From contig CAILCI010000033.1 in assembly GCA_903832625.1 (NCBI GenBank), positions 1-64,000 on the forward strand: DNA of 64,000 nt, written 5' to 3'. The notes under the pieces are model-generated. The model was not told the origin of the DNA and did not search any database. It saw only the letters and a program-made list of their open reading frames with translations. The stretch comes from an uncultured Burkholderiales bacterium (GTDB lineage: Bacteria > Pseudomonadota > Gammaproteobacteria > Burkholderiales > Burkholderiaceae_C). The translations under genes and the position numbers were made by a program. Position 1 is the stretch's first letter. The number at the start of each line of letters is the position of its first letter. Shown piece after piece: positions 1,819-19,546 of this stretch.

Positions 1819-1911
1819 ATTCACCGCATTTGTGCTCTAGGGTATCTCCCTAAGCGTAGTGATCGCCAGACGACAAGAATAGGCTTGCAAATTAAAGGAG
1901 TCATTGTCGTG

Positions 1912-3234: not shown

Positions 3235-3237
3235 GTT

Positions 3238-4296
3238 TTAGTATTTGCGCAACAACTCCGCAAGCCGAGCTTTCCACCACTTGGCCTGCGCAGTTGTGCC
3301 GTGGCCTTGGGTTTGATCGCTAGCGGGAATTAGAAAATAGTCAATGTTTTTGTTGCGTTTGATTGCCTGCTCAACCGCGCCCAATTCGGGTGGATTTCTC
3401 TCATCATCCGCCGAATTAATGACCAGCACATGCGCTTTTATTTTTTCTAAGTCTTGTGTTGGATTGAAATCGCGTGAAGCTTCCCACTGGTAGAGATGGT
3501 CGTTCGCATCGGCCGTCGATTTTGCATTCAATTTGTCATTCAAAAATTGGTCGGCTTTTTCTCGAGTCGGCGTATTTTTCTGAATATTCTGTGAGCCTCC
3601 GTTGGTCGCCAAGGAGTAAAAAACAGAAGCAAATTGCAAGCTCTTGGGCTGTTGTTTGTATTCACCATTGAGCCAAGTTGGATCATTGCGGATCGAGTCT
3701 GTGATCAAGCGGCGCAGCATCCAATTCCGCCCTGATATTTCAATGGGCGATGAGGCCATAGGAATAGCAATGTCCATGAATTCGGGATATTGGATGGCCC
3801 ACATCCAAGTGTGCATGCCCCCCATTGAGTTGCCAATGATCAAACGCAAATGTTGAATGCCCAATCCTTGCTTAACCAGCATGTATTGCGCCTTAACCAT
3901 ATCTGCATAGTTGTAGTTTGGAAATTTTGCGTGCAGCCCATCTGACGGTTTGCTAGAGCCGCCCATGCCAATTGAATCGGGCAAGATAATGAAATATTTT
4001 TTGGCGTCCAGCACTTGGCCTGGCGCGAATAATTCACCTGCAAAATTTGGATTCAACATCCCTTCACCCGTGCCTGTGGTGCCGTGCAGTATCAACACTG
4101 CAGGGTTGGCTGGGTCGCCCAAGGTGGTGTAGCCTATTTTGAGTTGCGGCAATCGTCTTGCATCATGAAACTCAAAGTCATTGATCGTGTAGATGCCACT
4201 CTTTTGAGATTCAAAGCTTTGCGTCAAGCCAGAGGTGGGATTGAGGCTCAACACCACCACCAAGCAACGAAATAAATAAGCAAACGCAAGCCTCAT
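3238..4296 (-). CDS. Secreted alpha/beta-fold hydrolase (MetX-like fold)
   Basis: The 352-residue protein is an alpha/beta hydrolase resembling the homoserine O-acetyltransferase group in sequence. The nucleophile elbow is GNSMGG with Ser157, the acid is probably Asp297 or Asp298 (SADDERNP), and the catalytic His is His332 (GHGTT). The oxyanion region is ILHGTTGTG near residue 70. An N-terminal signal peptide (residues 1-26) argues against a role in methionine synthesis, since true MetX is cytoplasmic. An AGGAG site precedes the ATG by 7 nt. It lies 40 nt downstream of a small secreted Cys-rich protein on the same strand and may belong to the cytochrome operon. The substrate is unknown. Confidence 0.85.
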   Translation of the reverse strand: MRLAFAYLFRCLVVVLSLNPTSGLTQSFESQKSGIYTINDFEFHDARRLPQLKIGYTTLGDPANPAVLILHGTTGTGEGMLNPNFAGELFAPGQVLDAKKYFIILPDSIGMGGSSKPSDGLHAKFPNYNYADMVKAQYMLVKQGLGIQHLRLIIGNSMGGMHTWMWAIQYPEFMDIAIPMASSPIEISGRNWMLRRLITDSIRNDPTWLNGEYKQQPKSLQFASVFYSLATNGGSQNIQKNTPTREKADQFLNDKLNAKSTADANDHLYQWEASRDFNPTQDLEKIKAHVLVINSADDERNPPELGAVEQAIKRNKNIDYFLIPASDQTQGHGTTAQAKWWKARLAELLRKY

Positions 4297-4336
4297 GTTT
4301 GTCTCCTGATTGTTTGCGCACTTGCGCGCAATTTGC

Positions 4337-4609
4337 TTAGGTTTTTAAGCAAGCCCCTTTGAAATTAGGTTTGCCGCCATTTGAGCAAGAACCCTTGTTC
4401 ACACAAATTTTAGGGCCGGTGATGCTGGGCTGATCTAAGTGGCTACCCGTTGGACATTTCAAATCTTTTTGTTTGTCGAACTCAGTTTGGCAATATCCTT
4501 CCGAGCTCCAGCGCAAACCTTGTGGGCAATTGACCTGTGGTTGTGCAAGCGCCCAATGCGGTATGACGCACAGCGCTAACAGGGCAATTTTTTTCAATAA
4601 ACTTTTCAT
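4337..4609 (-). CDS. Small secreted Cys-rich protein of unknown function
   Basis: The protein is about 90 residues with a clear signal peptide (MKSLLKKIALLALC, cleavage after ALA). The mature part contains six cysteines with recurring CP.G and C.N.G motifs, which suggests disulfide-stabilised knots. The start was placed at the ATG at 4609 because the signal peptide begins there; an upstream in-frame alternative would add 15 polar residues. I do not recognise the family. It lies 56 nt downstream of the cytochrome c4-like gene in the same direction and may be co-transcribed with it. Confidence 0.6.
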   Translation of the reverse strand: MKSLLKKIALLALCVIPHWALAQPQVNCPQGLRWSSEGYCQTEFDKQKDLKCPTGSHLDQPSITGPKICVNKGSCSNGGKPNFKGACLKT

Positions 4610-4665
4610 CGACCGCGACCTTGTTTGACAATTTTTTTGAGCGCTAATTGTCAATCAAGCGTCAC

Positions 4666-5295
4666 TTATTTCATAGTAGATAAATAGTTTGCAACCTGCT
4701 CCATTTCTTTTTCACTCAAGTTTTGCGTCACCATAGCCATTGGCGTATCGGGTCTGGCGTGCGTGTTTTTAAACACATGCAGTTGCTTGAGCAAATACTC
4801 TTTGTGCTGCCCCGCGAGCCTAGGAAATATTTGTTGACCTTGCGCTAATTCACCGTGACAAGCAGCACACGCCATGACTGACCGCTCTTGAATTCCTAAG
4901 TTATATATTTGCTTTCCCAAACTCGTGTCGCCCGAATAAAGCGAGGTGTTACTGGGTGTTTGTTGATAGAAATATTCAGCAATTTCTTGTTTTTGTTTTT
5001 CGTTCAAACCGCTGCTCATGCCAGCCATCACTTCAAGCGCCAAACGATCTGTTCTTGCGTGGCTTGCAAAATTGTTCAATTGACTCACCACATACGCTGT
5101 TTGCTGCCCAGCCAGTTTGGGATATTGTGCTGAATGTGAATTTCCATCTTCGCCATGACAGCTTGAGCAAACTTGTTGCGCAATGGTTTTGCCCTCGATG
5201 TTTGGGTTATTCAATGCACGCGATCTATCCGCTACCGTGCAAGCGGACAATGCAGACGCTGCTATCGATATTGCGATGATGAGGTATTTGTTCAT
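4666..5295 (-). CDS. Di-haem cytochrome c4-like lipoprotein
   Basis: The 209-residue protein has two c-type haem sites, CSSCH (residues 43-47) and CAACH (143-147), each followed by a P.LAGQ motif typical of the cytochrome c4 family. The N-terminus is a lipoprotein signal with lipobox LSAC (Cys19), so the protein is probably tethered to a membrane facing the periplasm. Cytochromes c4 shuttle electrons in the periplasm. The gene lies 13 nt downstream of a fused haem/beta-barrel outer-membrane protein, so the two are almost certainly one transcript and plausibly one electron-transfer route. Confidence 0.92.
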   Translation of the reverse strand: MNKYLIIAISIAASALSACTVADRSRALNNPNIEGKTIAQQVCSSCHGEDGNSHSAQYPKLAGQQTAYVVSQLNNFASHARTDRLALEVMAGMSSGLNEKQKQEIAEYFYQQTPSNTSLYSGDTSLGKQIYNLGIQERSVMACAACHGELAQGQQIFPRLAGQHKEYLLKQLHVFKNTHARPDTPMAMVTQNLSEKEMEQVANYLSTMK

Positions 5296-5308
5296 TTCAA
5301 TCTTTCAG

Positions 5309-6601
5309 TTAATAAGCTGCCCAAACATACAAGCGCACACTGTTTGCGTCTGAGGGGTTGACGATGCCCGCAAGCTTATTGAAGGTGGTGAATTGCAAAC
5401 CAACTCTCACATTTTGAAGCGGCATGTAAAACACCTCTGCCGTATTACCTTGGGTTGCCATGCTGAAGTCACCGCTTTGGTTGAAATAGGCCAAACTGCT
5501 TCCGTATTTGGCCATGTAAATATAGGAGGCTTTGCCTCTGAAAATATTGGTGTTTGAATTTCCCGATCCTGAAGCGTCCATGCCTGAGGCTAAAACAACT
5601 TGGTTTTGATAAACCGCTTGAACTGTGATGGTGTGAGGGTCTAGTAAATATTGGTATTGGCTGTCAATACCTCTGACCTTTACCGACTGATAGCTCAATG
5701 GATTAGACAATGACACACCATTGTTCAAGTCATACGGATGAGATGCCATGCCAGACAAGCCCACCATCATATTGCTGGCATTCCAGTCTTTGTTATAGGC
5801 CACGCGCCAATAGGGATTGGTAGAGCTCAGGGTTGCGTTTTGAATAGGGTCTGTATTGCCCGCATTCATAAAACTCAATACGCCTTTGGCGGTCTGATAA
5901 AGACCGACTTCTGCATAATATGTTTTATTCAAAAATGCATAACTTGTCAGCCCGCCATAGTGTCCGCCCGACAAGCCTGAACCCGCATAAGGTGTGGTTG
6001 CATCAATATGCGCATTCGCCCCTTTTCCTGCCGTAGCGGGAACATAATTCATCCACGCCCAAGACGTATTCCATGGATCGCTCACCGAAGGATTGTTGTT
6101 GAGCGAAAACCCATAAATCAAATCGCGTGTGGGCGACACGATTTGATCTGCCCAACGAAAATCCATCGTGTCTGCGGCTGTATGTCCCACCACATTATTT
6201 CCCGCCGCATCTGGTGCGGCGTAATTGTCATAGGTGACTTGCACAAAGGCGCCCACGTTGTCGGTGACTTTGCCTGCAAAAAATACGCTTCCTGTTTCAA
6301 AGTTTGGTTTGTTGTTGTTGATCGGCGTATTCAAAGCAGATTGGTCATTGATTGAATTGGGTTGGCGCATATGTGTGGCACCCAACACGCCCATCACTGA
6401 AATTGGGATAGTTTTTTTCTCGCCAATCGTATAACCCGTCAATTTAAAAATTCGCCCATACGACGTGAGTTCCGGATATTGCCCCCCCGCATGACAAGCC
6501 AAACAACTTTGTCCCGTTTGATTTGCAAATGCAGGTAATGCGCGCGCCCCAGAGCACAGCAGACTGAGCAAAACCCAGATAAAGATGTTTTTAGAAACCA
6601 T
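5309..6601 (-). CDS. Outer-membrane cytochrome-porin fusion (Cyc2-like architecture)
   Basis: The 430-residue protein has a signal peptide (cleavage near ARA-LPA), then one haem c site CLACH (Cys33, Cys36, His37) about a dozen residues into the mature chain, then a YGR.FKLTGYT motif. The rest, about 350 residues, alternates aromatic and polar residues like a beta-barrel and ends in an aromatic residue (VWAAY), as outer-membrane barrels do. A monohaem N-terminus plugged into a porin is the arrangement of Cyc2, the outer-membrane Fe(II) oxidase; assignment to Cyc2 proper is not shown. The start at ATG 6601 follows an AAGGG site; an upstream in-frame start would add 16 residues. The FNR/Anr box at 6661-6674 lies upstream. 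The c4-like gene follows 13 nt downstream. Confidence 0.75.
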   Translation of the reverse strand: MVSKNIFIWVLLSLLCSGARALPAFANQTGQSCLACHAGGQYPELTSYGRIFKLTGYTIGEKKTIPISVMGVLGATHMRQPNSINDQSALNTPINNNKPNFETGSVFFAGKVTDNVGAFVQVTYDNYAAPDAAGNNVVGHTAADTMDFRWADQIVSPTRDLIYGFSLNNNPSVSDPWNTSWAWMNYVPATAGKGANAHIDATTPYAGSGLSGGHYGGLTSYAFLNKTYYAEVGLYQTAKGVLSFMNAGNTDPIQNATLSSTNPYWRVAYNKDWNASNMMVGLSGMASHPYDLNNGVSLSNPLSYQSVKVRGIDSQYQYLLDPHTITVQAVYQNQVVLASGMDASGSGNSNTNIFRGKASYIYMAKYGSSLAYFNQSGDFSMATQGNTAEVFYMPLQNVRVGLQFTTFNKLAGIVNPSDANSVRLYVWAAY

Positions 6602-6660
6602 GACATTGCCCTTTTGTGGCTTTAATGGATTCATTTCACAGCGCAACACACACTTGGCCC

Positions 6661-6674
6661 TTGATCTATATCAA
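6661..6674. promoter_or_regulatory. FNR/Anr box
   Basis: TTGATCTATATCAA matches the FNR/Anr consensus TTGAT-N4-ATCAA perfectly. Its centre (6667.5) is about 66 nt upstream of the cytochrome-porin ATG. If it acts at -41.5, transcription of the minus-strand operon would start near 6626, with TGAAAT at 6638-6633 as a plausible -10. The ATP-grasp gene diverges at 6756, so regulation of that side is also possible. Oxygen-dependent control is inferred from the motif. Confidence 0.75.
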
Positions 6675-6755
6675 CTCAATTCATTTGAGCTATGGCAAAT
6701 ATTGACCGCTGTAGCGCCCATAAACCTTGGGTACATTTTTTGCTCGTAAAGAGGC

Positions 6756-8006
6756 ATGGCACATTTACTCATCATCGAATTACCCGGCGGCAACGACACC
6801 GATATTGTTCAAGCAGCACTGGCGCTGGGTCATGAATTTACTTTTTTGACCCAAGATATATCGCTCTACACACGACAACCGGTCGTGGCCACTTGGGTAA
6901 ATCAAGCAGTGCGCGTGATTGAATCGCGAGACTTTGACTACCCCTCTGTACTGGCTCAGGTGTTGCAAGCGCACGAGGTGCAGCCCTTAGATGCCGTGAT
7001 TTGCTTGCTCGATATTCGTCTGATCGAAGCTGCACGGTTGGCAAAGGCGCTCGAGCTCAACTACTTGAATCCAGACTCCGCTACGTTGTTGCGCGATAAA
7101 TTCAATGTCCGCACGCGGCTAGCACAAGCTGGCATTGAACAACCCGAATTTGCGTTAGCCACCAACAATGCGCAAATTCAGCAAGCGATTGATGCCTTAG
7201 GCCTGCCCATTTTGCTCAAGCCCAGCGACGGCTATGGCTCACAAAATATTTTGACGCTCCTCACACAAGCTGATTTACAACGCGCACAACCCCTCTTGAC
7301 GCAGCTATTGCCCATGGCATCAGACTACGGCTTAGGCGTGATGAGCAATGATCGGCTGCTGATTGAGCGCTATATGAGCGGCGTTTTCATTGGGTGCGAC
7401 ACCTTGACGGTCAATGGCACGCATCACCTTTTGGGCATCCATGAAAAGCTCATGTTCAGTCCGCCGTCTTTTGCTATCAAAGGTGGCTGCTTTTTACCCA
7501 ACCAAGGTGAGTGGCCCGGTTTGGAAGATTATTTAAAGCGCCTCTTGAACGCTGTCGGCTTTGACTGCGGCGCGGCTCACATTGAAATCATGCTCACGCC
7601 CCAAGGGCCGCGCTTGGTAGAGATCAACCCACGTTTGGTGGGTGCCAAAATTGCGCGGCTGGTTGCTTATTCGCTCAATTGCTCGGTGCATGAGTTGCTC
7701 ATCCAATTGCATTTAGGCCTTGAACCTTTGCCCCTGCCCGATACCCAACGCGCACAGCCTGCCGTCTCACGTTGGTTTATTGCTGAAAATACCGGTCAAT
7801 TTGCGGGCTTTACGCCCCCGCAATGGCAAAACGAGGGCATCAAATGCACTGAAATTCTCAAAAAAATCGGTGACACCGTGAGCTACCCATTTGAGAATGC
7901 CCAGCGCTTGGGCTACGTGATGGCCTGTTGCCCGACCCGCCAAGAGGCCGAGCATTTAGCGGAAAAATATATCGAGGATTCGCGCATCGCAATCCACAGC
8001 CATTAA
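6756..8006 (+). CDS. ATP-grasp family ligase
   Basis: The 416-residue protein has an N-terminal Rossmann-like preATP-grasp domain (residues about 1-100) and an ATP-grasp fold (about 110-320). The nucleotide-binding lysine is in ILLKPSDGYGS, and metal ligands lie in IEIMLTPQG and VEINPRLVG. It resembles the carboxylate-amine ligases that join a carboxylate to an amine, thiol or carbonate nucleophile with ATP; the substrates are not apparent. It stands 77 nt before a tiny Ala-rich gene in the same direction, a neighbourhood reminiscent of peptide-modifying ATP-grasp ligases. It lacks an obvious match to graspetide enzymes and is longer than them. Confidence 0.85.
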   Translation: MAHLLIIELPGGNDTDIVQAALALGHEFTFLTQDISLYTRQPVVATWVNQAVRVIESRDFDYPSVLAQVLQAHEVQPLDAVICLLDIRLIEAARLAKALELNYLNPDSATLLRDKFNVRTRLAQAGIEQPEFALATNNAQIQQAIDALGLPILLKPSDGYGSQNILTLLTQADLQRAQPLLTQLLPMASDYGLGVMSNDRLLIERYMSGVFIGCDTLTVNGTHHLLGIHEKLMFSPPSFAIKGGCFLPNQGEWPGLEDYLKRLLNAVGFDCGAAHIEIMLTPQGPRLVEINPRLVGAKIARLVAYSLNCSVHELLIQLHLGLEPLPLPDTQRAQPAVSRWFIAENTGQFAGFTPPQWQNEGIKCTEILKKIGDTVSYPFENAQRLGYVMACCPTRQEAEHLAEKYIEDSRIAIHSH

Positions 8007-8083
8007 TTTTTTTTGGATTGCCCTCAAGTTTATAAATTTGCTTCCGATCATGACTACATCTCAATCTCTCTTTAGGAGTTCCT

Positions 8084-8275
8084 ATGGGAATGTCAGTCGG
8101 ATCAAGCGGCGCAAGTAGCGCAATGGCTCAAATTCAAGCCGCCCAAGCAGCGCCTCAAGCTGCGGCAGCACCCGCAGCGGCGCTCAATGCAGCCAGCGCT
8201 GCACAAGACAGCTCCATCAAAGCATTGCTCAGCGCCCTCACGGGCCAAGGTGGCAATGTCGACGTGATGGCATAA
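8084..8275 (+). CDS. 63-residue Ala/Ser/Gln-rich peptide, possible precursor or structural peptide
   Basis: The start is well supported: an AGGAG site lies 7 nt before the ATG. The peptide has a Gly/Ser-rich head (MGMSVGSSGASS), a central stretch almost entirely Ala, Gln and Pro, and a more varied tail containing SSIKALLSAL and ending GGNVDVMA. There is no signal peptide, Cys or aromatic residue. A hairpin follows the stop codon, so the peptide may be made in excess of the downstream proteins. The layout (short leader-like peptide, ATP-grasp enzyme before it, modification-type proteins after it) resembles a ribosomally made, modified peptide locus, but the Ala-rich core also suits a structural or low-complexity role. 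No family was recognised. Confidence 0.65.
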   Translation: MGMSVGSSGASSAMAQIQAAQAAPQAAAAPAAALNAASAAQDSSIKALLSALTGQGGNVDVMA

Positions 8276-8290
8276 GGCAGCCACCACCCT

Positions 8291-8320
8291 GCGGCAAGTT
8301 ATTGCCGCTTGTTTGCTTTC
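8291..8320 (+). terminator. Hairpin with T-rich tail, possible attenuator
   Basis: GCGGCAA (8291-8297) and TTGCCGC (8302-8308) form a perfect 7-bp stem with loop GTTA, followed by TTGTTTGCTTTC. It lies 15 nt after the small peptide gene and before the WD40 gene. A partial terminator there would raise peptide output relative to the rest of the operon. The tail is not a pure U-tract, so termination would be incomplete. Confidence 0.5.
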
Positions 8321-8366
8321 AAGGGCCGAAAAACGCCAGTGGTACGAGACTTGCATTCGGCTCCTT

Positions 8367-10046
8367 ATGCTCAAACATCTCGGACCAATTGCAGGGATGG
8401 CCGCCCACGCCTCATGGGTGGCCTCCGCTGGCTACGACAACAAAGTCATCTTGTGGGATGCCGCCACGAAAAAACCATTGGCGCAAGGTCTTCATGACCA
8501 TTTGGTCAACAGTTGCGCCTTCAGCGCGGATGGTCAGTGGCTAGTGAGCGCCAGCAGCGACTATTCGGCACGATTGTGGTCACTGCCCAACCTGCGGCTG
8601 CACGCCGTACTGCTCGGCCACGAAGACGATGTGGACATGGCCGTGTTTTCGCCTAACAGCCAACTCATTGCCACGTGTGCGCTCGATCGACGGGTGCGAG
8701 TTTTCGATTTGCAAGGGCGCTGTCAAATGACCTTTGAGGGACACACCGGCAATGTGCTGGCCTTGGCTTGGACAGCCGACGGTCAAGGGCTGATTTCCAC
8801 CAGTGTGGACGGCACGATTCGCCAATGGAGTTTGCCAACGGGTCAGCAATCCAGCATCAACGATTTGCAGATTCGCACCGATTCGCTGGAGATTGCCAGC
8901 GATGGCACGATTTACGCAGGCGACGATTTGGGCCGCATCGCCAGCGTTCGCAACGGGCACATCGCCTACACCCAGGCGCATCAAGCGGGCATCAAAAAAG
9001 TGGTGCTCAACGATGCGCGACAACAATTGGTCTGCCTGAGTTATGACAGCAGCATGAGTATTTGGGATGTGCGCCAAAGCGAACCCCACTTGCTCAGCCG
9101 ATGCCCCTTGCCGGCGTTGATATGGGCTCGCAGCGCAGCTATTCTTGAAGACTCACGCGTGGCAGTAGGCACATTTGGCAGCACCTATGCGGTGTTTGAT
9201 AGCGAAACCATGTCTTGGGACATGACGGGAGTTGAAGCGGGCTCGGCCATCAATGCACTGCTGAGCGTGAACAACCACACCTACGCAGTAGGCGACTCTG
9301 GCGCAGTGCTTGACAACGGCGAGCGCATCGCAGAGATGGGGAGTTTGTGCAATTTTTTAGTGTTGTCACACCACTTATTGCTGACCGGTGGCCAACTTGG
9401 CCAGTTGTTCAACGCCAAATCGGGTGAGGTACTTCACCAACACCACTCACCCTTGAACTGTGGCGTTGCGTTCACTCATGCGCACAAGCCGCATTTGGCC
9501 ATCGGCACGTACACGGGCGAGATACTGATTTTTAAATTCAGTGGCTTAGAGCTTGAATTGATCCACACCCTCAAAACCTACGACAACGCAGTCAAGGGTT
9601 TGAGTGTGGCGCAAGGGAAGTTGTTCTCCGTTTGTGCCAATACCCGCATTGCCTGGCACAGCTTAGAAGACTTTTCTTTGTTGCACCACATAGATCACGC
9701 CCACGACAAAATTGTCAACGATTGTTGCGGCATTGACGCGCATCACTTTGCCACGGTGAGCCGCGACCGCAGCCTCAAAATTTGGAATGATCAAGACGTA
9801 GAAGTTTTTGCCAGCCCACATCTGAATTCAATCAAATGCATTGCCATTGACGACACAAAAACCCATTTGCTCACGGGCAGCTACGGTGGCAGCTTGGCGC
9901 TGTTTGACCTTGAGCACAAAACTTGGTCCCAGTTTGCACGCCCCACCACAGCGGGTATTTCAGACATCACATGGGACGCCAGTCAACAACAGTTTTTGGC
10001 GGCGTCTTACGATGGGCACATTTACCCTTTGCGAATTTCGCCATGA
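8367..10046 (+). CDS. WD40-repeat beta-propeller protein
   Basis: The protein is about 559 residues and consists almost wholly of WD40 repeats, visible as recurring cores such as SAGYDNKVILWD, SASSDYSARLWS and TVSRDRSLKIWN; the later ones are degenerate. About 12-14 blades are suggested, i.e. probably two propellers. No signal peptide or catalytic domain is present, so it is likely a cytoplasmic scaffold. The ATG at 8367 was chosen because the first blade begins there; a TTG at 8313 would add 18 residues. The stop overlaps the next start (ATGA at 10043-10046), so it is translationally coupled to the FGE-fold protein. Confidence 0.85.
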   Translation: MLKHLGPIAGMAAHASWVASAGYDNKVILWDAATKKPLAQGLHDHLVNSCAFSADGQWLVSASSDYSARLWSLPNLRLHAVLLGHEDDVDMAVFSPNSQLIATCALDRRVRVFDLQGRCQMTFEGHTGNVLALAWTADGQGLISTSVDGTIRQWSLPTGQQSSINDLQIRTDSLEIASDGTIYAGDDLGRIASVRNGHIAYTQAHQAGIKKVVLNDARQQLVCLSYDSSMSIWDVRQSEPHLLSRCPLPALIWARSAAILEDSRVAVGTFGSTYAVFDSETMSWDMTGVEAGSAINALLSVNNHTYAVGDSGAVLDNGERIAEMGSLCNFLVLSHHLLLTGGQLGQLFNAKSGEVLHQHHSPLNCGVAFTHAHKPHLAIGTYTGEILIFKFSGLELELIHTLKTYDNAVKGLSVAQGKLFSVCANTRIAWHSLEDFSLLHHIDHAHDKIVNDCCGIDAHHFATVSRDRSLKIWNDQDVEVFASPHLNSIKCIAIDDTKTHLLTGSYGGSLALFDLEHKTWSQFARPTTAGISDITWDASQQQFLAASYDGHIYPLRISP

Positions 10047-11065
10047 ATCACACACCGCACCACGACTGGCATTGGCCCGTGTTTGAAGAAACCCTGTGCG
10101 GCACCATGACTGACCGCGAGCGCTTAGGCCTGCCCCAGCACTATGTGCAAGGTCGGCTGGATGCGCAAATTGCCGAGGCTTATGCGTTTTTGTATGGTCT
10201 GAGCCGCGACAACTTGCTCAACCTCATCGCCTCCACACACCACACGCTCGCGCAGCGTATTGCCGCAGGCAATTTATTGGCTTTGCTGGGCGATCCGCGC
10301 ATTGAGGTGATGCAGCCCGCAATGGTGGAAATTGCAGGCGGCGATGTTCAGCTTGGTTTAGACCCCGATCAAGTCGATGCCGTGTTGGAGCGCTTTAGCG
10401 GCCTAGGCCTCAACCGCGCTTGGATTGAAAAAGAATGTCCAAGCTACTCGGCGTCAATCCAGCCCTTCAAGATCGCCAAATACCCCGTCACCCACCAAGA
10501 ATACAAAGCGTTTTTGTTGGACACGGCTTTTCCAGAAATTCCCAGCAGTTGGGACTTTAGGCGCTATCCGCAAGAACGCGCCAATCATCCTGTCTACACC
10601 GTCAGCCATGCGGCAGCGCAAGCTTATGCGCTGTGGTTGTCAGCGAAAACAGGTCGCGCGTTTCGCTTGCCGACCGAGGCCGAATGGGAGTGGGCTGCCA
10701 TGGGACACGACCATCGTGAGTTTCCGTGGGGCAACAGCTTTCATGCCGACTTTGCCAATTCGGCTGAAACGGGTCTGTTCACCACCACGGCTGTGGGCGT
10801 GTTTTTAGAAGGCGATTCGCCATTTGGCGTGAGCGACATGGCGGGCAATGTGGAGGAATACGTGGCCGACGCCTATGCGCCCTACCCCAACGGTCAATTT
10901 GTACAAGACCATTTGGTGGACATCCACGGTCAATACCACGTCGCACGCGGTGGCAGCTTTGCGCGCTTTCGCGATTTGCTGCGCACCAAGCGCCGACACG
11001 GCCACAACCCCAAGTCGTCCACGTATGCCATGGGGTTTCGTTTGGCTGAAACGCCCAGCGCCTAA
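10043..11065 (+). CDS. FGE-sulfatase-fold (SUMF1/EgtB/PvdO superfamily) protein without catalytic cysteines
   Basis: The 340-residue protein has an N-terminal alpha-helical region (about 1-90) and a C-terminal formylglycine-generating-enzyme fold (about 92-336). The hallmarks are FRLPTEAEWEWAA (207-219), MAGNVEEYV (266-274), RGGSF (302-306) and GFRLA (331-335). In true formylglycine generators two cysteines lie in the segment between RGGS and GFR; here that segment has none, and the only cysteines are Cys19 and Cys132. It is therefore not a standard formylglycine oxidase. It could be a PvdO-like or other oxidoreductase, or a binding module. It starts inside the stop of the WD40 gene and is followed after 9 nt by the TPR gene. 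Confidence 0.85.
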   Translation: MNHTPHHDWHWPVFEETLCGTMTDRERLGLPQHYVQGRLDAQIAEAYAFLYGLSRDNLLNLIASTHHTLAQRIAAGNLLALLGDPRIEVMQPAMVEIAGGDVQLGLDPDQVDAVLERFSGLGLNRAWIEKECPSYSASIQPFKIAKYPVTHQEYKAFLLDTAFPEIPSSWDFRRYPQERANHPVYTVSHAAAQAYALWLSAKTGRAFRLPTEAEWEWAAMGHDHREFPWGNSFHADFANSAETGLFTTTAVGVFLEGDSPFGVSDMAGNVEEYVADAYAPYPNGQFVQDHLVDIHGQYHVARGGSFARFRDLLRTKRRHGHNPKSSTYAMGFRLAETPSA

Positions 11066-11074
11066 ACTTTGCGC

Positions 11075-12496
11075 ATGTCAGAGAATCACCGCGCAGCGCT
11101 GCAACAACTCAACGCCAGCATTGAGGCCGATGCGCACAACTTGCTCACCCGCTTTCAGCGCAGTATGTTGCATCAACTCCTCGCACAGCCTGAGCAGGCG
11201 CTGGCAGATGTGCAAATTGCGCTCGAACTAGAGCCTCATCATCCAGAAGTGCTCAACCTCAGAGGCACGATTTATCTGGATTTGAAGCTGCCTTCAAAAG
11301 CGCTTGCAGATTTTCAACAAGCCTCGCAACACGCTCCGCAATACGCCACGGCTTTTTTCAACTGGGGCAGCACGCTGCAAAGTTTGGGGCAATTGGAAGA
11401 TGCCATTGCTTGCTTTGACCAAGCCCTGGCCATAGAACCTCAGTTTGTGCAAGCCTTGAGCAACAAAGGCACTGCGCTGCACGCGCTCAACCGCCCCAAC
11501 GATGCACTGGCTTGCTACGACCAAGCGTTGATGTACAGCCCCGATTTGCCCGATGTGCAATGGAACAAAGCGCTCTCTTTGCTGACCTTGGGCGACTTCA
11601 AACAAGGCTGGCCTTTGTACGAATACCGCTGGCAAACTCAAGGTTTTATGCCACGCACCTTGCCCAGCACAAGGTGGCTGGGTGAAACCCGCTTGCAAGG
11701 CAAGCGCATTCACATCTATGCAGAACAAGGCTTGGGCGACACGATTCAGTTTTTGCGCTACCTCAGGCCGCTGGCGCAAACGGGCGCGATCATCACACTG
11801 GAAGTGCATTCGTCACTGCTGAGTTTGGCGCAAAAAATTCCGCGCATCGCGCAAGTCATTGCGCTGGGCGAGCGGCCACCTGCGTGCGATGTTCATTGCG
11901 CCCTGATGTCATTGCCTTTGGCCTTGGGTTTGCATTCGCCTATTTCAGCAACTGAGCTGGGCGCTGCGCTGCAAGCCTCGTCGCACCACTTGGCACTTTG
12001 GAATAACAGACTGGGCGCGAAAACCAAGCCACGCATTGGCTTGGTCATGCACGGCAATTTGCGCAATGAAAAAGACGCTTTGCGCAGCATTGCCGCTCCC
12101 TTGTGGTTGAAGCATTTACCGCCCGAATTTGACTATGTGTTGTTGCACGAGCATTTGAGCAGTTCGCAGCGTGAGCATTTTGAAACGCGAGAAAATTTCC
12201 ATTATTTTGGCGACCACATAACCAGCTTTGAAGACACTGCCGCGTTGTGCCAACTGATGGACGTGGTGGTCAGCGTTGACACCAGCGTGGCGCACCTCAG
12301 CGCCAGCTTAGGCCGCCCCACATGGCTGGTTTTGCCCCACGCGCCGGATTGGCGCTGGCAGCTTGAGCGCACTGACAGCCCTTGGTATGCGTCGATGCGT
12401 TTGTTTCGTCAAACACAGGCAACGCAGTGGACAGAAGCTTTACAAAGCATCGCACATGAATTGAGCCGATTTCTTTTGCTGGGCGATAAAATTTGA
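11075..12496 (+). CDS. TPR protein with C-terminal glycosyltransferase-9-like domain
   Basis: The protein is 473 residues. Residues about 1-175 are tetratricopeptide repeats, seen as repeated A...F..AL...P blocks such as AIACFDQALAIEPQF and ALACYDQALMYSPDL. Residues about 200-465 resemble heptosyltransferase/GT-B enzymes, with YAEQGLGDTIQFLRYL near 215-230 and a VSVDTSVAHLSASLGRPTW motif near 400-420, the usual donor-side signature. Proteins of this fusion type are often linked to glycosylation, but donor and acceptor cannot be told. The ATG at 11075 is preferred over a TTG at 11069. The gene is tightly packed with its FGE-fold neighbour and precedes a TonB receptor. Confidence 0.85.
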   Translation: MSENHRAALQQLNASIEADAHNLLTRFQRSMLHQLLAQPEQALADVQIALELEPHHPEVLNLRGTIYLDLKLPSKALADFQQASQHAPQYATAFFNWGSTLQSLGQLEDAIACFDQALAIEPQFVQALSNKGTALHALNRPNDALACYDQALMYSPDLPDVQWNKALSLLTLGDFKQGWPLYEYRWQTQGFMPRTLPSTRWLGETRLQGKRIHIYAEQGLGDTIQFLRYLRPLAQTGAIITLEVHSSLLSLAQKIPRIAQVIALGERPPACDVHCALMSLPLALGLHSPISATELGAALQASSHHLALWNNRLGAKTKPRIGLVMHGNLRNEKDALRSIAAPLWLKHLPPEFDYVLLHEHLSSSQREHFETRENFHYFGDHITSFEDTAALCQLMDVVVSVDTSVAHLSASLGRPTWLVLPHAPDWRWQLERTDSPWYASMRLFRQTQATQWTEALQSIAHELSRFLLLGDKI

Positions 12497-12560
12497 CTCT
12501 GTATCGCATTTATCTTTTTATCTTGTGACCGCGTTTTTGCCTGTTTTCTAAGGACTGTGA

Positions 12561-14660
12561 ATGCCCCGTTTCCCGCTGAATTGCTGGGCTTGTGCCATTG
12601 CAGTGTTGTTGGGCTCCGCCAGCCACGCCGACGATTCAACCGTTGAAATTGCACCCATCACCATCAAACTCAAGCGCTTAGACACCGCTCGAAACGGCTT
12701 GTCTACCGATACCGGCAGCTCCACCTACAACTTTGACGCCACCGACATCGAGGCTCTGCCCTTGGGCGCGAGCACTCCCATCAACCAAGTGCTGTTGCAA
12801 GCGCCAGGTGTGGTGCAAGATTCTTATGGCCAATTGCATGTGCGCGGCGACCATGCCAATGTGCAATACCGCATCAACGGCGTGCTCATTCCAGAACCCA
12901 TTTCTGGTTTTGGTCCGGCCATTGATACGCGGTTTGCCAACAACATCAACTTTCTGACCGGCGCTTTACCGGCGCAATACGGCTATCGCACAGCGGGCGT
13001 GGTGGACATTCAAACCAAGGGTGCAGACGAGCTAGAAAACGGCGCAGAAATTGGCACGGTGTTGGGCAGCAACGGCCACCGCGAACTCAACGCCAGCATT
13101 TCGGGCGTCAAAGGCGACTGGACATATTTCTTCACCGGCACGGGATTAACCAATCCGCTTGGCATTGAAAACACCACCCGCGAACGCACCGCTTTGCACG
13201 ACAAAACTAATCAAAGCAAAGGCTTTGGCTATGCGTCGTATTTGATAGACAGCGCGAGTCGGCTCAGTTTTATGGCGGGCGTGTCGGCTTCAAAATTTCA
13301 AATACCCAACTTGCCGGGGCTCTCGCCCAGCTACAGCTATACAGGCGCGAGCGTTCCCGCCTCGGCTAATCTGAACGCCAACCAGCAAGAACGCAACCAG
13401 TTCCAAACCGTCACTTATCAACACAGCGGCGACGGTGCGCTGGACTACCAAATTTCCGCGTTTCATCGCATCAGCGCGGTGGACTACCAACCCGACACCG
13501 TGGGCGATTTGGTCTACAACGGCATTGCCGCCCGCATACACCGCCAAAGCGATGCTTATGGTTTGCAGTCTGATGCGAGCTACAAAATCGACGCCCGCAA
13601 CACCTTGCGTAGCGGCTTTTTCTTGCAGCACGAGCGCATGGTGGTGGACAACAACTCTTTGGTGTTTGCGGCCAATGCCAGCGGCGTTCAAACCGGATTC
13701 ACGCCCCTTGGCATTCAAGACAACAACACATTTGGCGGCTACACCCTAGGCGTGTATGTGCAAAACGAATTCAAACCCTCGCAGCAATGGACGCTCAACT
13801 ACGGCGCGCGTTACGACCATGTCAACACCGTCACGACTGAGGGGCAACTCAGCCCGCGTTTTGGCGTGGTGTTTGACGCCAGCGACGCCACACGGCTTCA
13901 CGCGGGTTATGCGCGGTATTTCACACCGCCGTCGAGCGAAAAAATCAACACCACGTCGGTCGCCCTGTTTCAAGGCACCACCAATGCCTTGCCTTCTGAC
14001 GCCAACACCGCCGTCAAAGCCGAGCGCTCCAACTACTTTGACGTCGGCGTTTCACACATTGTGAACCCACAGCTCACGCTCGGCATGGATGCCTATTACC
14101 GCCAAGTGAGCAACTTGCAAGACGAAGGCCAGTTTGGCAACGCCTTGATTTACTCCGCCTTCAACTATGCGCAAGGGCGCATTGGCGGCATTGAATGGTC
14201 GGCCAACTACCACGACCACAACTTCAGTGCCTACGGCAATTTGTCGCGCTCGGTGGCCTATGCGCAAAACCTCAGCACAGGGCAATTCAACTTCAGCCCC
14301 GATCAGCTCAACTACATTGCCAACCACTGGGTTCACTTAGACCACGACCAAATGTGGACCGGCTCAGGCGGCATGAGCTACCGCCTGGGCGACAAAACAC
14401 TCAGCGGCGATATGCTGTTTGGCACGGGCTTGCGCAATGGTTTTGCCAACACCGACCACTTGCCTTTTTATGCGCAGTTCAACGCCTCGGTCTTTCAAAA
14501 ATTCAAGTCCTCGCAGTTGGGCAACAACACCGTGCGTTTGAGCGTGCTCAATGTGTTTGACCGCGCCTATGAATTGCGTGATGGCACGGGCATTGGCGTG
14601 GGCGCGCCGCAATGGGGACAACGCCGCACGCTCTATTTAGGGTTGAGCCATGCTTTTTAA
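12561..14660 (+). CDS. TonB-dependent outer-membrane receptor
   Basis: The 699-residue protein has a signal peptide (residues 1-24, cleavage near SHA-DDS), a plug domain (about 40-160; VLLQAPGVVQDSYGQLHVRG and YRINGVLIPEP are typical) and a 22-stranded-barrel region ending in an aromatic terminus (LSHAF). Such receptors import scarce ligands such as metal chelates, vitamins or oligosaccharides using TonB energy. An AAGGA site precedes the ATG. It is the last gene of the 8-14.7 kb cassette, 64 nt after the TPR-glycosyltransferase gene, which suggests the cassette makes or uses a ligand taken up here. The ligand is unknown. Confidence 0.9.
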   Translation: MPRFPLNCWACAIAVLLGSASHADDSTVEIAPITIKLKRLDTARNGLSTDTGSSTYNFDATDIEALPLGASTPINQVLLQAPGVVQDSYGQLHVRGDHANVQYRINGVLIPEPISGFGPAIDTRFANNINFLTGALPAQYGYRTAGVVDIQTKGADELENGAEIGTVLGSNGHRELNASISGVKGDWTYFFTGTGLTNPLGIENTTRERTALHDKTNQSKGFGYASYLIDSASRLSFMAGVSASKFQIPNLPGLSPSYSYTGASVPASANLNANQQERNQFQTVTYQHSGDGALDYQISAFHRISAVDYQPDTVGDLVYNGIAARIHRQSDAYGLQSDASYKIDARNTLRSGFFLQHERMVVDNNSLVFAANASGVQTGFTPLGIQDNNTFGGYTLGVYVQNEFKPSQQWTLNYGARYDHVNTVTTEGQLSPRFGVVFDASDATRLHAGYARYFTPPSSEKINTTSVALFQGTTNALPSDANTAVKAERSNYFDVGVSHIVNPQLTLGMDAYYRQVSNLQDEGQFGNALIYSAFNYAQGRIGGIEWSANYHDHNFSAYGNLSRSVAYAQNLSTGQFNFSPDQLNYIANHWVHLDHDQMWTGSGGMSYRLGDKTLSGDMLFGTGLRNGFANTDHLPFYAQFNASVFQKFKSSQLGNNTVRLSVLNVFDRAYELRDGTGIGVGAPQWGQRRTLYLGLSHAF

Positions 14661-14667
14661 GAAAAGA

Positions 14668-15171
14668 CTAAGGCCGCTTTTGCAGCAGCGGCGTGATCAA
14701 ACTCTCCAACATCTCGGTGGTGACGGCTGCATCGCCCACATGCCCGTTTTTGCGCAACACGCCGTCGCGGTCCATCACAAAGGTCGAGGGCAAACGCCAA
14801 ACACGGCCTAGTTCGGCCATGTTGGCATCAGACTTGTGCGCCAGCGAAAAACTGAATGGCTTGGCATACGCTTTGACCGCATTCAAGTTTTTGGCGTCGT
14901 CCATGCTGACAGCGAGCACCTCAAAACCTTGGTCTTTGTGCGCTTGATAAAAAGCCTCGATGGCAGGCATTTCTTCTTTGCACGGCGCACACCAAGTTGC
15001 CCAAAAATTCACCAACACCACGCGGCCTTTGAGTTGTGCGCTGCTGAGCACGGTTTGACCATCTAGCAGCTTGGCTTGGAATTGCGGTTGGGATACGCCG
15101 AGTTGTAGGTCTGCGGCTTGGGTGCTGAAGCACAAACAACAACAGATCAATGTGAAAAATAACTTGAACAT
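14668..15171 (-). CDS. TlpA-family periplasmic thiol-disulfide oxidoreductase
   Basis: The 167-residue protein has a signal peptide (cleavage near TQA-ADL) and a thioredoxin fold with active site WCAPC (Cys61, Cys64), a cis-proline-type loop in RLPSTFVMD and the VNFWATWC lead-in. It resembles TlpA/ResA proteins, which reduce disulfides in the periplasm, for example on apocytochromes or copper proteins. It converges with the TonB receptor gene only 7 nt away, so the pair are not co-transcribed. Confidence 0.9.
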   Translation of the reverse strand: MFKLFFTLICCCLCFSTQAADLQLGVSQPQFQAKLLDGQTVLSSAQLKGRVVLVNFWATWCAPCKEEMPAIEAFYQAHKDQGFEVLAVSMDDAKNLNAVKAYAKPFSFSLAHKSDANMAELGRVWRLPSTFVMDRDGVLRKNGHVGDAAVTTEMLESLITPLLQKRP

Positions 15172-15273
15172 GCCAACCTTGAATCAGTAGTAGCAGCCCT
15201 GAGGCACAAATGCTGCAATTGGCTCTACTATACGAAACATCAATTCACCCACCCTCATCCCAAGGAAAAAGAT

Positions 15274-15780
15274 ATGGAACTACTCACCAAAATGCGCGGC
15301 GACGGCGCGGCTTTGCCGCCCGTGCCTTCTAAAAAATCAGTCGCCATTGCGTGGTTGGGCGGATTTGTGACGTTGGCGCTTTTAGCTGGCGTGAGCAACG
15401 GCTTGAATGTGGCGCTGGTGTTGGGCTCGTTTGGCGCGTCTTGTGTGCTGGTGTTTGGTTTTCCAGATGCGCCTTTTTCGCAACCGCGCAATGTGGTGCT
15501 AGGGCATGTCATCAGCTCATTGATTGGACTCGGGTGTATGCAGCTTTTTGGCGCCGAGTGGTGGTCGGTGGCCATTGCCGTGGGCACAGCCATTGCCGTC
15601 ATGATGCTCACCCGCACCGTGCATCCGCCTGCTGGCTCCAATCCGGTGATTGTGTTTTTAGGCCACCCAAGCTGGGGCTTTTTGCTATTTCCCACATTGG
15701 TTGGCGCAGTGCTGATCGTGCTGGTGGCCTTGGTTTACAACAACCTCAGCCGTGAGGCGCGGTGGCCTAAGTATTGGTGA
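15274..15780 (+). CDS. HPP-family integral membrane protein
   Basis: The 168-residue protein has about four transmembrane helices and the family's diagnostic HPP motif in TRTVHPPAGSNPV. HPP proteins are inner-membrane proteins; a plastid member has been linked to nitrite transport, but the bacterial role is mostly unassigned. An AAGGA-type site precedes the ATG. The gene stands alone between the divergent tlpA-like gene and the MBL hydrolase. Confidence 0.88.
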   Translation: MELLTKMRGDGAALPPVPSKKSVAIAWLGGFVTLALLAGVSNGLNVALVLGSFGASCVLVFGFPDAPFSQPRNVVLGHVISSLIGLGCMQLFGAEWWSVAIAVGTAIAVMMLTRTVHPPAGSNPVIVFLGHPSWGFLLFPTLVGAVLIVLVALVYNNLSREARWPKYW

Positions 15781-15925
15781 TTTTTAATTGCAAAAGCAGA
15801 AGTCGTTCGACCAAAGCAAACTCGCCGTGGAAATGCAAATAGTTCTGATCTTGCGTTTTTTGGCATTGAAGGCAATCATCTATATTTACGTCTGAGTTTT
15901 CAGCTGACGTCCCGATAATCCCCCC

Positions 15926-16564
15926 ATGCTCCACTACCAAACCATCCCCGTCACCCCCTTCCAACAAAACTGCTCGCTGGTCTGGTGCGACAAAACGCTG
16001 CAAGCTGCTGTCATCGACCCCGGTGGCGATTTGGAGGTGTTGCTCGACGCCGTCAAACAACTGGGTTTGACCTTGGAGCAAATTTGGATCACCCACGGCC
16101 ACATTGACCATGCGGGCGCAACCGCCGAATTGGCGCAAATGCTGAATTTGCCCATCATCGGCCCGCACGAAGGCGATCAGTTTTGGATCGACGGCTTGCC
16201 CCAAGCGGCGGCCAGCTATGGTTTTGCGCCTGCGCAAGTGTTCACACCCACGCGCTGGTTGCACGATGGCGATACCGTCACCCTGGGCGAGCACACGCTG
16301 CAAGTGCGCCATTGCCCAGGGCATACGCCGGGGCATGTGGTGTTTTATTCGCCCGAAATCAAACGCGCGTTTGTGGGCGATGTGCTGTTTGCGGGCAGCA
16401 TTGGCCGCACCGATTTTCCGCGTGGCAATCACCAAGATTTGATCAACAGCATCACCCAACGCCTGTGGCCCATGGGCGACGACACGGTGTTCATTCCCGG
16501 CCACGGGCCCGAGAGCACCTTTGGGCGCGAGCGCATCAGCAACCCTTATGTGGGTGGGACTTGA
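15926..16564 (+). CDS. Metallo-beta-lactamase-fold hydrolase (glyoxalase II-like)
   Basis: The 212-residue protein carries the di-metal HxHxDH motif (HGHIDH, residues 57-62) plus the later ligands in CPGHTPGH, FVGDVLF and IPGHGPE. This pattern matches the short glyoxalase II-like / YcbL group that hydrolyses thioesters such as S-lactoylglutathione; the exact substrate is not shown. It is shorter than classical GloB (about 250 residues). It converges with the M48 protease gene, with a 3-nt gap. Confidence 0.9.
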   Translation: MLHYQTIPVTPFQQNCSLVWCDKTLQAAVIDPGGDLEVLLDAVKQLGLTLEQIWITHGHIDHAGATAELAQMLNLPIIGPHEGDQFWIDGLPQAAASYGFAPAQVFTPTRWLHDGDTVTLGEHTLQVRHCPGHTPGHVVFYSPEIKRAFVGDVLFAGSIGRTDFPRGNHQDLINSITQRLWPMGDDTVFIPGHGPESTFGRERISNPYVGGT

Positions 16565-16567
16565 TGT

Positions 16568-17392
16568 TTAACGATTAGCAATAGCTTGCTCATACAAGGG
16601 CATGACCTTGGGCAAGTTGGCTTGTATTTCTTGAATGCGCGTCGTGCTGGCGGGGTGCGTGCTCAACCACTGGGGCGGTGCGCCTTTGTTGGCTTGACTC
16701 ATTTTTTGCCACAAGGTTACGCCCGAGCGCGGATCAAAACCAGCGCGTGCGGCCAATTCCATGCCCACCAAGTCAGCCTCGGTTTCGTCGTCGCGGCTGA
16801 ATTTGAGGGTAAGCAAGTTGGCACCTTGTTTGGCCACAAAGTCGGTCACATTGGGGCTGATGCCAAAAAACACCGAGGCTACGGTGCTGCCAATGGTCGC
16901 CAAGCCGTTCGTGGCGGTGGCTTTGCCCATGCGCTCGCGGGCGTGTTCGCGCAGGGCGTGGGCAATTTCGTGGCCCATGACCATGGCCACTTCGTCGTCG
17001 CTCAAATCGAGTTGCTTCAAGATGGCGCTGTAAAACACAATTTTTCCGCCCGGCATACAAAACGCGTTGATTTGGTTGGCGCCCAACAGGTTGACCTCCC
17101 ATTTCCAATCGCGCGCACGCGGGTTCCAGTCGTAACTCTGCGGAATCAGCTGATTGGCAATGCGACGCAAGCGTATGACTTGCGGGTGTTCGTCTGAGCC
17201 CAAGGCGTTTTGGCTGGCTGCATCTTTGAGGATTTGCGCGTATTGCTGCTTGGCCGATTGCTCCACTTGTTCGGCAGGCACCAGTTTGGCAAACGCCGAT
17301 TCTTGGCCGACTTCCACGCCGTCGCGCGCCAACATGGGCGCAGGGCTGGCCAAGCACGCGGCAACGCATAAAAACACCAGACTTCGTTTCAT
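16568..17392 (-). CDS. M48-family zinc metalloprotease
   Basis: The 274-residue protein has a signal peptide (residues 1-22) and the zinc-binding HEIAH motif (His141, Glu142, His145) with the downstream glutamate in DETEADLVGMELAARAG. It resembles the periplasmic YggG/LoiP and BepA-type proteases that survey outer-membrane protein assembly. There are no C-terminal TPRs, so it is closer to LoiP. It diverges from the AmpG-like transporter across 35 nt. Confidence 0.9.
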   Translation of the reverse strand: MKRSLVFLCVAACLASPAPMLARDGVEVGQESAFAKLVPAEQVEQSAKQQYAQILKDAASQNALGSDEHPQVIRLRRIANQLIPQSYDWNPRARDWKWEVNLLGANQINAFCMPGGKIVFYSAILKQLDLSDDEVAMVMGHEIAHALREHARERMGKATATNGLATIGSTVASVFFGISPNVTDFVAKQGANLLTLKFSRDDETEADLVGMELAARAGFDPRSGVTLWQKMSQANKGAPPQWLSTHPASTTRIQEIQANLPKVMPLYEQAIANR

Positions 17393-17427
17393 TTAAGCCC
17401 CTAGACATTTCGCACGAAAATAACAGT

Positions 17428-18771: not shown

Positions 18772-18831
18772 TTTACCGATTCTTTACGAAATAGATAAGC
18801 GCAGGCTTTACAAACGGCGCACCATTCCTCC

Positions 18832-19542
18832 ATGACTACCTTGCTCATCATTGAAGACGACCACCGACTTGCCCAAATGGTGGGGGAATATCTCACCCAA
18901 TCAGGCTTTACTGTGCACCACGCCAGTGGCGGAGTTCAGGGCTTGCAAATGCTGCAAACCTTGACGCCCGCGCTGGTGCTGCTTGATTTGATGTTGCCAG
19001 ACATTGACGGACTAGAAGTGTGCCGACGCATTCGCTCATTGCCGGGCGCATTTGCGCAAACGCCGGTGCTCATGCTCACCGCCAAAGGTGATCCGATGGA
19101 TCGCATTGTTGGTCTAGAAATTGGTGCAGACGATTACCTGCCCAAGCCTTTTGAGCCGCGTGAATTGCTAGCGCGTGTGCGTGCGGTGCTGCGCCGCCAT
19201 CAACCCGGCAATGAAGCGTCATCGAACAGCAAAGAGCCTTTAAAGTTCGGCTCCTTGCAAATAGACCGCGATGCACGCACTGTGTCCGTGCATGGCCAAC
19301 CCTGCGAATTGACCTCTTACCAATTCGATTTGTTGTGGGTGCTGGCCGAACGAGCTGGGCGCGTGCTCTCGCGCGATCAAATCATGGAGGCTGTACGTGG
19401 CCGTGAACTCGAAGCCTTTGACCGCTCGATTGACGTCCACATGGGACGCATTCGCGCCGCCATTGAAGACGATGTCAAAACGCCCAAACGCATCCTCACA
19501 GTGCGCGGTGTAGGCTACGTGTTTGCCAAACAACAAGACTAA
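18832..19542 (+). CDS. OmpR-family response regulator
   Basis: The 236-residue protein has a receiver domain (residues 1-120) with acidic pocket residues in IIEDD, phospho-acceptor Asp52 (LLDLMLPDIDG), switch Thr in MLTAKG and Lys in YLPKPFEPREL, and a winged-helix DNA-binding domain (about 140-235; DRSIDVHMGRIRAAIEDD). It precedes the histidine kinase by 4 nt and forms a two-component pair with it. Confidence 0.95.
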   Translation: MTTLLIIEDDHRLAQMVGEYLTQSGFTVHHASGGVQGLQMLQTLTPALVLLDLMLPDIDGLEVCRRIRSLPGAFAQTPVLMLTAKGDPMDRIVGLEIGADDYLPKPFEPRELLARVRAVLRRHQPGNEASSNSKEPLKFGSLQIDRDARTVSVHGQPCELTSYQFDLLWVLAERAGRVLSRDQIMEAVRGRELEAFDRSIDVHMGRIRAAIEDDVKTPKRILTVRGVGYVFAKQQD

Positions 19543-19546
19543 AACC

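Follow-up and report, generated by a model that had tools for sequence, protein, structure and literature searches.

The closest described relatives of the gene cassette reported here are found in the operons for toxoflavin and pseudoiodinine. The cassette lies at positions 6756-14660 of a 64,000-nucleotide (nt) stretch of contig CAILCI010000033.1, hereafter the window, from an uncultured Burkholderiales bacterium. For pseudoiodinine, the available text of the original report states that psdC, encoding a sulphatase-modifying-factor protein, and psdE, encoding a WD-40 protein, are required, and that feeding with 1,6-didesmethyltoxoflavin restores production in psdC and psdE mutants; its authors propose that PsdE and/or PsdC link ribitylaminouracil and glycine via an N-N bond (PMC9911603). 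For toxoflavin, the accessible part of a 2025 preprint names ToxC as a family of oxidases proposed to form N-N bonds (PMC12154649), and ToxC is termed a protein of unknown function in the part consulted of an earlier paper (PMC5851621). In the pheganomycin system, the ATP-grasp enzyme PGM1 attaches an acyl group to the N-terminal end of a ribosomal peptide, as described in the available portion of PMC8359417.

By comparing the window with related loci, we identified a conserved set comprising four of the six genes of the cassette, all on the + strand: an ATP-grasp ligase of the L-amino-acid-ligase type (416 residues, 6756..8006), a 63-residue peptide that we term the MGM peptide (8084..8275), a WD40 protein (8367..10046) and a protein with the fold of formylglycine-generating enzyme (FGE; 10043..11065). 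The FGE-fold protein is ToxD/PsdC-like. The WD40 protein is PsdE-like and, by inference, ToxC-like; we take ToxC, from gene order, to be the WD40 protein of the toxoflavin operon. What is new here is the MGM peptide family and its pairing with an ATP-grasp ligase at ToxC/ToxD-type loci. We tentatively favour reading the locus as a candidate cassette resembling those of ribosomally synthesised and post-translationally modified peptides (RiPPs), which would conjugate an azapteridine-type ring derived from GTP to a ribosomal peptide. The cassette links a short conserved precursor gene to putative modifying enzymes, as RiPP loci do, and the peptide may be modified by them.

The MGM peptide of the window begins with MGMSVGSS, continues with an Ala/Ser/Gln-rich middle and ends with GGNVDVMA; its gene is preceded by the ribosome site AGGAG. 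It matched no family above cut-off in Pfam, where a single sub-threshold match to YppG was obtained (E 0.039), nor in NCBIfam or PHROGs, the scans covering seven family members for Pfam, one for NCBIfam and two for PHROGs. Within its own genome the peptide matched itself only, as a second match (E 0.18) contained stops. The family comprises 33 distinct members of 54-362 residues, all without cysteine and with low-complexity middles, which follow a common pattern: they open with MGMx[IV], vary in between and mostly close with Gxx[IVL][ND]xx[AV]. Gly2 is found in 32 of the 33 members and Ile or Val at position 5 in all 33; at the other end, Gly occupies position -8 in 29, Asn or Asp position -4 in 31 and Ala or Val the last position in all 33, a conservation that is partly imposed, since the search pattern itself demands M1, Gly or Glu at position 2, M3 and the C-terminal end. 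A blastp cluster made before any pattern was defined nevertheless carries MGM (once MEM) at every N-terminal end not lost at a contig edge. A stricter C-terminal motif, Gxx[IVL][ND]xxA, is present in 19/33 peptides.

The strict family pattern has a single match in the 64-kb window, the open reading frame at 8084-8275. Across the loci described below, it gave 24 matches in 19 of 26 peptide-type loci (404 kb) and none in 54 control loci (1.06 Mb), and a relaxed pattern matched in 27 of 31 versus 2 of 54, both control matches being unlike the family. Additionally, the C-terminal motif occurs in 1 of 275 reading frames of the window and in 0 of 4292 from the 54 comparison loci. Because the strict pattern and the C-terminal motif are nearly absent elsewhere, the MGM reading frame is more than a chance occurrence. 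Just 3′ of its stop codon, on the same strand, we localized a 7-bp G+C-rich hairpin (8291..8308) followed by a T-rich stretch that extends to 8319, a possible leaky terminator judging from its sequence. Such hairpins follow 7 of the 33 family peptides versus 12 of 1650 mononucleotide shuffles; across the whole region, however, hairpins are no more frequent than chance predicts (12 observed against 13.0), and this one folds with unremarkable energy (z 0.49).

To place the cassette among its relatives, 271 FGE relatives were found by a scan of genome contigs and the best 80 of the 271 were kept; loci (L) were thus picked by FGE similarity, and most peptide-bearing ones come from draft metagenome-assembled genomes (genomes are labelled G). 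Twenty-six of the 80 (L003-L027 and L030), together with the window and four further loci, constitute a clade of 31 loci, while the remaining 54 (L028, L029 and L031-L082) constitute a toxoflavin-type comparison set without an MGM peptide. The 31 peptide-type FGE proteins form one group, on an unstarred branch with support 83/92, in a tree of 87 rows from which eighteen duplicate ids had been removed. Record titles assign clade members to Acetobacteraceae, Marinobacteraceae, Gallionella and Ferrovum, and L023, which has peptide, WD40, FMN_red, FGE and ATP-grasp genes, belongs to the isolate Mangrovitalea sediminis M11-4. The MGM peptide is present in 28 of the 31 loci (the pattern detected 24, a less strict scan added L006, L018 and L020, and in L005 the gene is truncated by a contig end), and the family pattern matches none of the 54 other ToxD loci; within the clade, L003, L016 and L030 yielded no peptide, the latter two lying at contig ends. 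A relative of the ATP-grasp ligase (at least 36% identity) accompanies 26/31 clade loci versus 5/54 toxoflavin-type loci, the five with at most 31% identity, and an FMN_red gene accompanies 19/31 versus 1/54; in G253, G313 and G342, the ATP-grasp and FMN_red genes lie together elsewhere in the genome. Conversely, a gene for a RibA-like GTP cyclohydrolase II is near the WD40-FGE pair in 5/31 clade loci versus 49/54 toxoflavin-type loci. Type-specific residues were listed for the WD40 and FGE proteins. The sequence-only reading had proposed a peptide-modification or ligand-uptake locus and had named the lack of a conserved association in related genomes as evidence against it; the association was found for the four genes above, which recur together in other genera and families, as expected if the locus modifies a peptide, and the TPR-glycosyltransferase and TonB receptor genes fall outside it.

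The WD40-FGE pair is recognizable on its own. The FGE-fold protein matches FGE-sulfatase in Pfam and aligns over residues 21-337 with the solved structure of ToxD (PDB 7spq; E 6.5e-94), and its identity to the FGE proteins of the 54 toxoflavin-type loci is 45-55%. Formylglycine-generating enzymes carry an active-site cysteine pair in their C-terminal part; the protein of the window has no cysteine past residue 132 and thus does not qualify as one. Against the NCBIfam equivalogs EgtB (76.4 of 360 bits) and SenA (72.5 of 420 bits) it scored below both cut-offs. The WD40 protein, identified by Pfam WD40 matches, was modelled as an all-beta protein of 559 residues (mean predicted local distance difference test score, pLDDT, 95.5), a length that would suffice for two propellers, and by both sequence and fold its matches in the PDB were general propellers only. 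The comparison set has a WD40 gene near FGE in 52 of the 54 loci, where the identity to the window protein is 26-47% and at least 40% in 48 of the 52. A RibD-like gene was found in 33 of the 54 and a methyltransferase gene in 31, with RibA, RibD and methyltransferase all together in 26. An annotated Azospirillum plasmid carries consecutive methyltransferase, SUMF1, WD40 and ribD genes, and its annotation shows no gene in the interval expected to hold RibA. Judged by homology, the WD40-FGE pair is that of the toxoflavin/pseudoiodinine-type operons and is hence already known, so that the earlier suggestion of a composition without a described counterpart does not extend to this pair; it stands for the combination of the pair with a ribosomal peptide and an ATP-grasp ligase, which is undescribed among the literature matches listed. 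Among the titles and opening abstract lines of the open-access matches listed, none linked a precursor peptide to toxoflavin-type genes or to a set of WD40, formylglycine-type and ATP-grasp genes. Among the comparison loci, four of the Streptomyces type (L064, L066, L069 and L082) carry WD40, FGE, RibA and an ATP-grasp relative (30-31%), together with a cysteine-synthase-like gene and an MFS-like (major facilitator superfamily) transporter gene, both identified by eye, and make up another uncharacterised cluster of the same type.

The ATP-grasp product matches ATP-grasp_4 and LAL_C2 above the Pfam cut-offs, while RimK, at 20.8 bits for a cut-off of 21, falls just below. In a Foldseek search with its structure model (mean pLDDT 92.7), the top match was 4dim, named phosphoribosylglycinamide synthetase, and ranks 2-7 were L-amino acid ligases, including 3vot, 4wd3 and BacD (3vmm). 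Because the closest structures of the model are mostly amino-acid ligases, amide formation is its likely reaction. Graspetides are made by a RimK-like ligase, which links side chains through acidic residues of the core. We discarded a graspetide reading, as the ligase is of the LAL type and the 63-residue peptide is poor in acidic residues (two Asp and no Glu). A second ATP-grasp gene of the same family is present in the genome of the window (G000:C65:52384-53460, L151), surrounded by moaA-, mobA-like and RND-efflux-like (resistance-nodulation-division) genes, as judged by eye, with similar surroundings in G027 (L152); no MGM pattern was found near L151 in the 19 kb scanned. In four clade loci, we noted by eye a TPR protein with an ATP-grasp-like C-terminal part, located between WD40 and FGE in L019 and L025 and before WD40 in L018 and L020; Pfam recognized only the TPR part of the L020 protein.

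The comparisons show which known proteins the enzymes resemble, that the genes occur together and that the peptide is conserved at both ends; on the favoured reading, the parts would work as follows. Housekeeping genes would supply a GTP-derived intermediate of the riboflavin pathway, which the ToxC-like WD40 and ToxD-like FGE proteins would convert to a small azapteridine-type ring rich in nitrogen; the ATP-grasp ligase would then join this ring, its precursor or a related unit to the MGM peptide through an amide bond. The peptide ends would serve as recognition or attachment sites and the middle as a spacer. The ring is proposed because the pair is homologous to ToxC/ToxD, and the amide bond because the ligase resembles amino-acid ligases, with PGM1 as a precedent. 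A more specific version starts from the fact that an N-terminal Met is removed when Gly follows. Since Gly2 is nearly invariant, most of the peptides would start with Gly-Met once Met1 is removed, and by analogy the glycine of the ring might be the peptide's own N-terminal glycine, N-N bonded to ribitylaminouracil. We consider this version decidedly unlikely; the uptake of glycine by the ring rests on the proposal put forward by the authors in the available text of PMC9911603. If true, the product would be a ribosomal protein whose N-terminus bears a redox-active azapteridine resembling a flavin, and would represent a novel type of RiPP or of protein-borne cofactor.

Whole-genome searches support the pairing of peptide and ligase. 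Among 399 genomes of the order, a ToxD-like FGE (E 1e-75 or better) is present in 10 and a short MGM peptide (1e-6) in five, all of them among those ten. Four of the five had contributed rows to the peptide profile and the fifth (G342) carries a peptide identical to one of these rows, so this agreement is circular; no such circularity affects the lack of a match in the remaining 394 genomes. The remaining ToxD-like genomes of the order are G260, G293 and G352, with longer or other MGM genes (L127, L018 and L020), and G068 and G201, which are of the toxoflavin type. Within the genus, the ATP-grasp gene (E 1e-60) was found in 15 of 61 genomes, and all 15 have the peptide gene (12 by the profile at 1e-3 and three by the pattern) versus 0/46 of the others by profile, an upper limit on true absence because the profile overlooks some longer peptides (G004, G031, G439). 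The three pattern-found genomes are these same ones, with longer MGM genes beside the ATP-grasp gene, and G457 has its peptide and ATP-grasp genes on separate contigs. The association has a one-sided p of 2.6e-10, or 1.0e-7 when the four of the 12 profile-matched genomes that had supplied rows (G000, G011, G018 and G448) are left out, both values uncorrected for kinship. The ATP-grasp gene, which the sequence-only reading had placed in the operon from its direction and a 77-nt gap, recurs with the peptide in these genomes, as do its relatives in most clade loci.

Several results weigh against the conjugation reading. A full-length FGE was found in only 4 of the 37 genus genomes searched (G000, the genome of the window, G011, G018 and G027), and of the nine among the 37 that have the ATP-grasp gene, only three have FGE. 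Six genomes (G004, G020, G025, G031, G032 and G033) gave no FGE match at E 1e-3 despite adjoining peptide and ATP-grasp genes, including the 100% complete G032, and the idea that the peptide depends on ToxC/ToxD is weakened accordingly. The MGM peptide can dispense with ToxD and mostly does so in the genus. The nearest relative of the window, L003 (draft genome G027, 85% complete), has the WD40-FGE pair and no peptide in its 7.6-kb contig or, by profile, elsewhere, and G027 showed no ATP-grasp gene at E 1e-60. Moreover, the genome of the window has no FMN_red of the clade kind, and a dedicated GTP cyclohydrolase II (ToxB) is absent, the sole PF00925 match (E 1e-5 or better) being on another contig; one family peptide starts with MEM instead of MGM. 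Two queries, for a RibD-like deaminase (ToxE) and a methyltransferase (ToxA), were unmatched in positions 1-20000 of the window.

These results can also be read as a peptide and ligase that form a system of their own, acting in end-modification or as a carrier peptide, as LysW does in amino acid biosynthesis, with ToxC/ToxD merely sharing the locus and making a free azapteridine that has no contact with it. This alternative is possible, if somewhat doubtful. It is favoured by the six FGE-less genomes, by G439, with neither WD40 nor FGE within the 19 kb taken, by L206 (G032), whose flanking genes are common with L004 and L007 yet include no WD40 or FGE (WD40 absence applying to the stretches taken around loci), and by a peptide gene that lies at most 160 nt from the ATP-grasp gene in 9/31 clade loci. 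Nevertheless, the WD40 start lies 12-71 nt from the peptide gene in 14/31 clade loci (by match ends), and peptide-less ToxC/ToxD loci fall outside the peptide-bearing FGE clade, except for L003, L016 and L030. In addition, FGE-less loci sit among FGE-bearing ones in the ATP-grasp tree, built after removal of five duplicate or short sequences and, because of their length, of L006 and L018; under a root set by midpoint only, this placement suits repeated later loss of ToxC/ToxD. As the genus pairing is 15/15 but FGE accompanies only 3/9, peptide and ligase are the core, and ToxC/ToxD is an added or often lost module. The FGE-less L201 retains a GTP cyclohydrolase II gene beside the ATP-grasp gene, and an ApbE gene lies directly downstream of a second-type ATP-grasp gene in L210 (by Pfam) and L212 (by eye); a flavin or GTP-derived theme may persist in FGE-less loci (L201, L210).

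The C-terminal end of the peptide raises a separate issue. Proteins of the YjfB family (PF14070, putative motility protein) share with the MGM peptide a length of about 65 residues and the very C-terminus, and differ in their N-terminal part: nine from the order of the window (loci among L174-L187) end in sequences such as LGQNINTTA, LGNQIDTYA and LGRNIDVKA. The window peptide does not match PF14070, which has no match above cut-off in its genome, and PF14070 was rejected as the parent family, since a profile comparison aligned the last 11 columns only, at a probability of 34%. The family was found in 30/120 genomes of the order, and none of 15 YjfB loci has such an ATP-grasp ligase within about 1.5 kb on each side. 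Because YjfB proteins share the C-terminal end without such a ligase nearby, this end may act as a signal that has nothing to do with the ligase, a further point against conjugation. It also fits an account in which the peptide is an unmodified structural, secreted or regulatory partner, for instance one that traps a reactive azapteridine or tags it for export, and the ATP-grasp enzyme adds an amino acid to a small molecule. The low-complexity middles and wide length range of the family agree with this, as do the 30-31% ATP-grasp relatives near WD40/FGE in the four Streptomyces-type loci, which have no such peptide; however, it leaves the ATP-grasp/peptide pairing in FGE-less genomes unexplained, and we regard it as unlikely. 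No title among the literature matches listed for YjfB concerns its role, and the shared C-terminus offers a lead on that family too.

Regarding the layout of the cassette, the ORF listing and translation of the window confirmed the six + strand frames in compact order, as described from the sequence alone, together with the strong ribosome site of the peptide gene and the ATGA shared by the WD40 stop and FGE start (10043-10046). In cassette order, the intergenic gaps are 77 and 91 nt, then the WD40/FGE overlap, then 9 and 64 nt, with start and stop codons checked. Two starts were corrected: for WD40, ATG 8367 is more likely than the TTG at 8313 of the ORF list, and the gene that begins 9 nt after FGE was assigned, from its sequence, a start at ATG 11075. 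This gene (11075..12496) encodes a TPR protein with a glycosyltransferase-9-like C-terminal part (Pfam TPR and a weak Glyco_transf_9 match, 23.6 bits for a cut-off of 22), and it is followed by a gene for a TonB-dependent receptor (12561..14660, Pfam TonB barrel) and then by a convergent gene. The same-strand receptor, 64 nt from the TPR-glycosyltransferase gene, might suggest a locus for uptake, in which it imports a ligand made or processed by the other genes. Comparison lends this no support: the receptor occurs in 1/31 clade loci, the window itself (60-bit limit; L008 and L009 give weak matches, 27% and 40 bits), and a TPR-glycosyltransferase relative in 2/31, the window and L027. Ligand uptake is therefore highly improbable, and both genes are probably passengers of the window's copy. 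Upstream, on the - strand, lie genes for an outer-membrane cytochrome-porin-like (Cyc2-like) protein (5309-6649) and a diheme cytochrome (4666-5295). Cyc2-like genes near the cassette also occur in L010, L013 and L132; the L010 and L013 proteins fit the Cyc2 motif AXPXFAR[QK][TY] given in the available text of PMC8406198, and the window copy has Asn replacing Arg. The Cyc2-like gene was rejected as a cassette member because it is non-specific, with relatives (E 1e-20) in 46/250 genomes of the order.

This work names an unstudied peptide family and connects it and a ligase that likely forms peptide bonds with the ToxC/ToxD-type pair, for which N-N bond formation is put forward as a proposal in the papers cited. 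If conjugation holds, the locus would represent a class of RiPPs bearing a GTP-derived heterocycle and would provide a simple test substrate for the pair. Compared with the toxoflavin operon toxABCDE and the pseudoiodinine operon psdABCDEFG, the window likewise has a WD40 gene beside or near an FGE-fold gene, and it has a ribosomal peptide and an ATP-grasp ligase in place of dedicated ribA, ribD and methyltransferase genes. The L-amino acid ligases BL00235, RizA and BacD have the same fold as its ATP-grasp product at only 15-19% identity in the Foldseek alignments; unlike them, the window-type enzyme pairs with an MGM peptide gene in all 15 genus genomes found to encode it. With pheganomycin PGM1, the window shares, by description, the combination of an ATP-grasp amide ligase with a ribosomal peptide; their peptides belong to different families, their partner enzymes are not the same, and the small acid probably differs as well.

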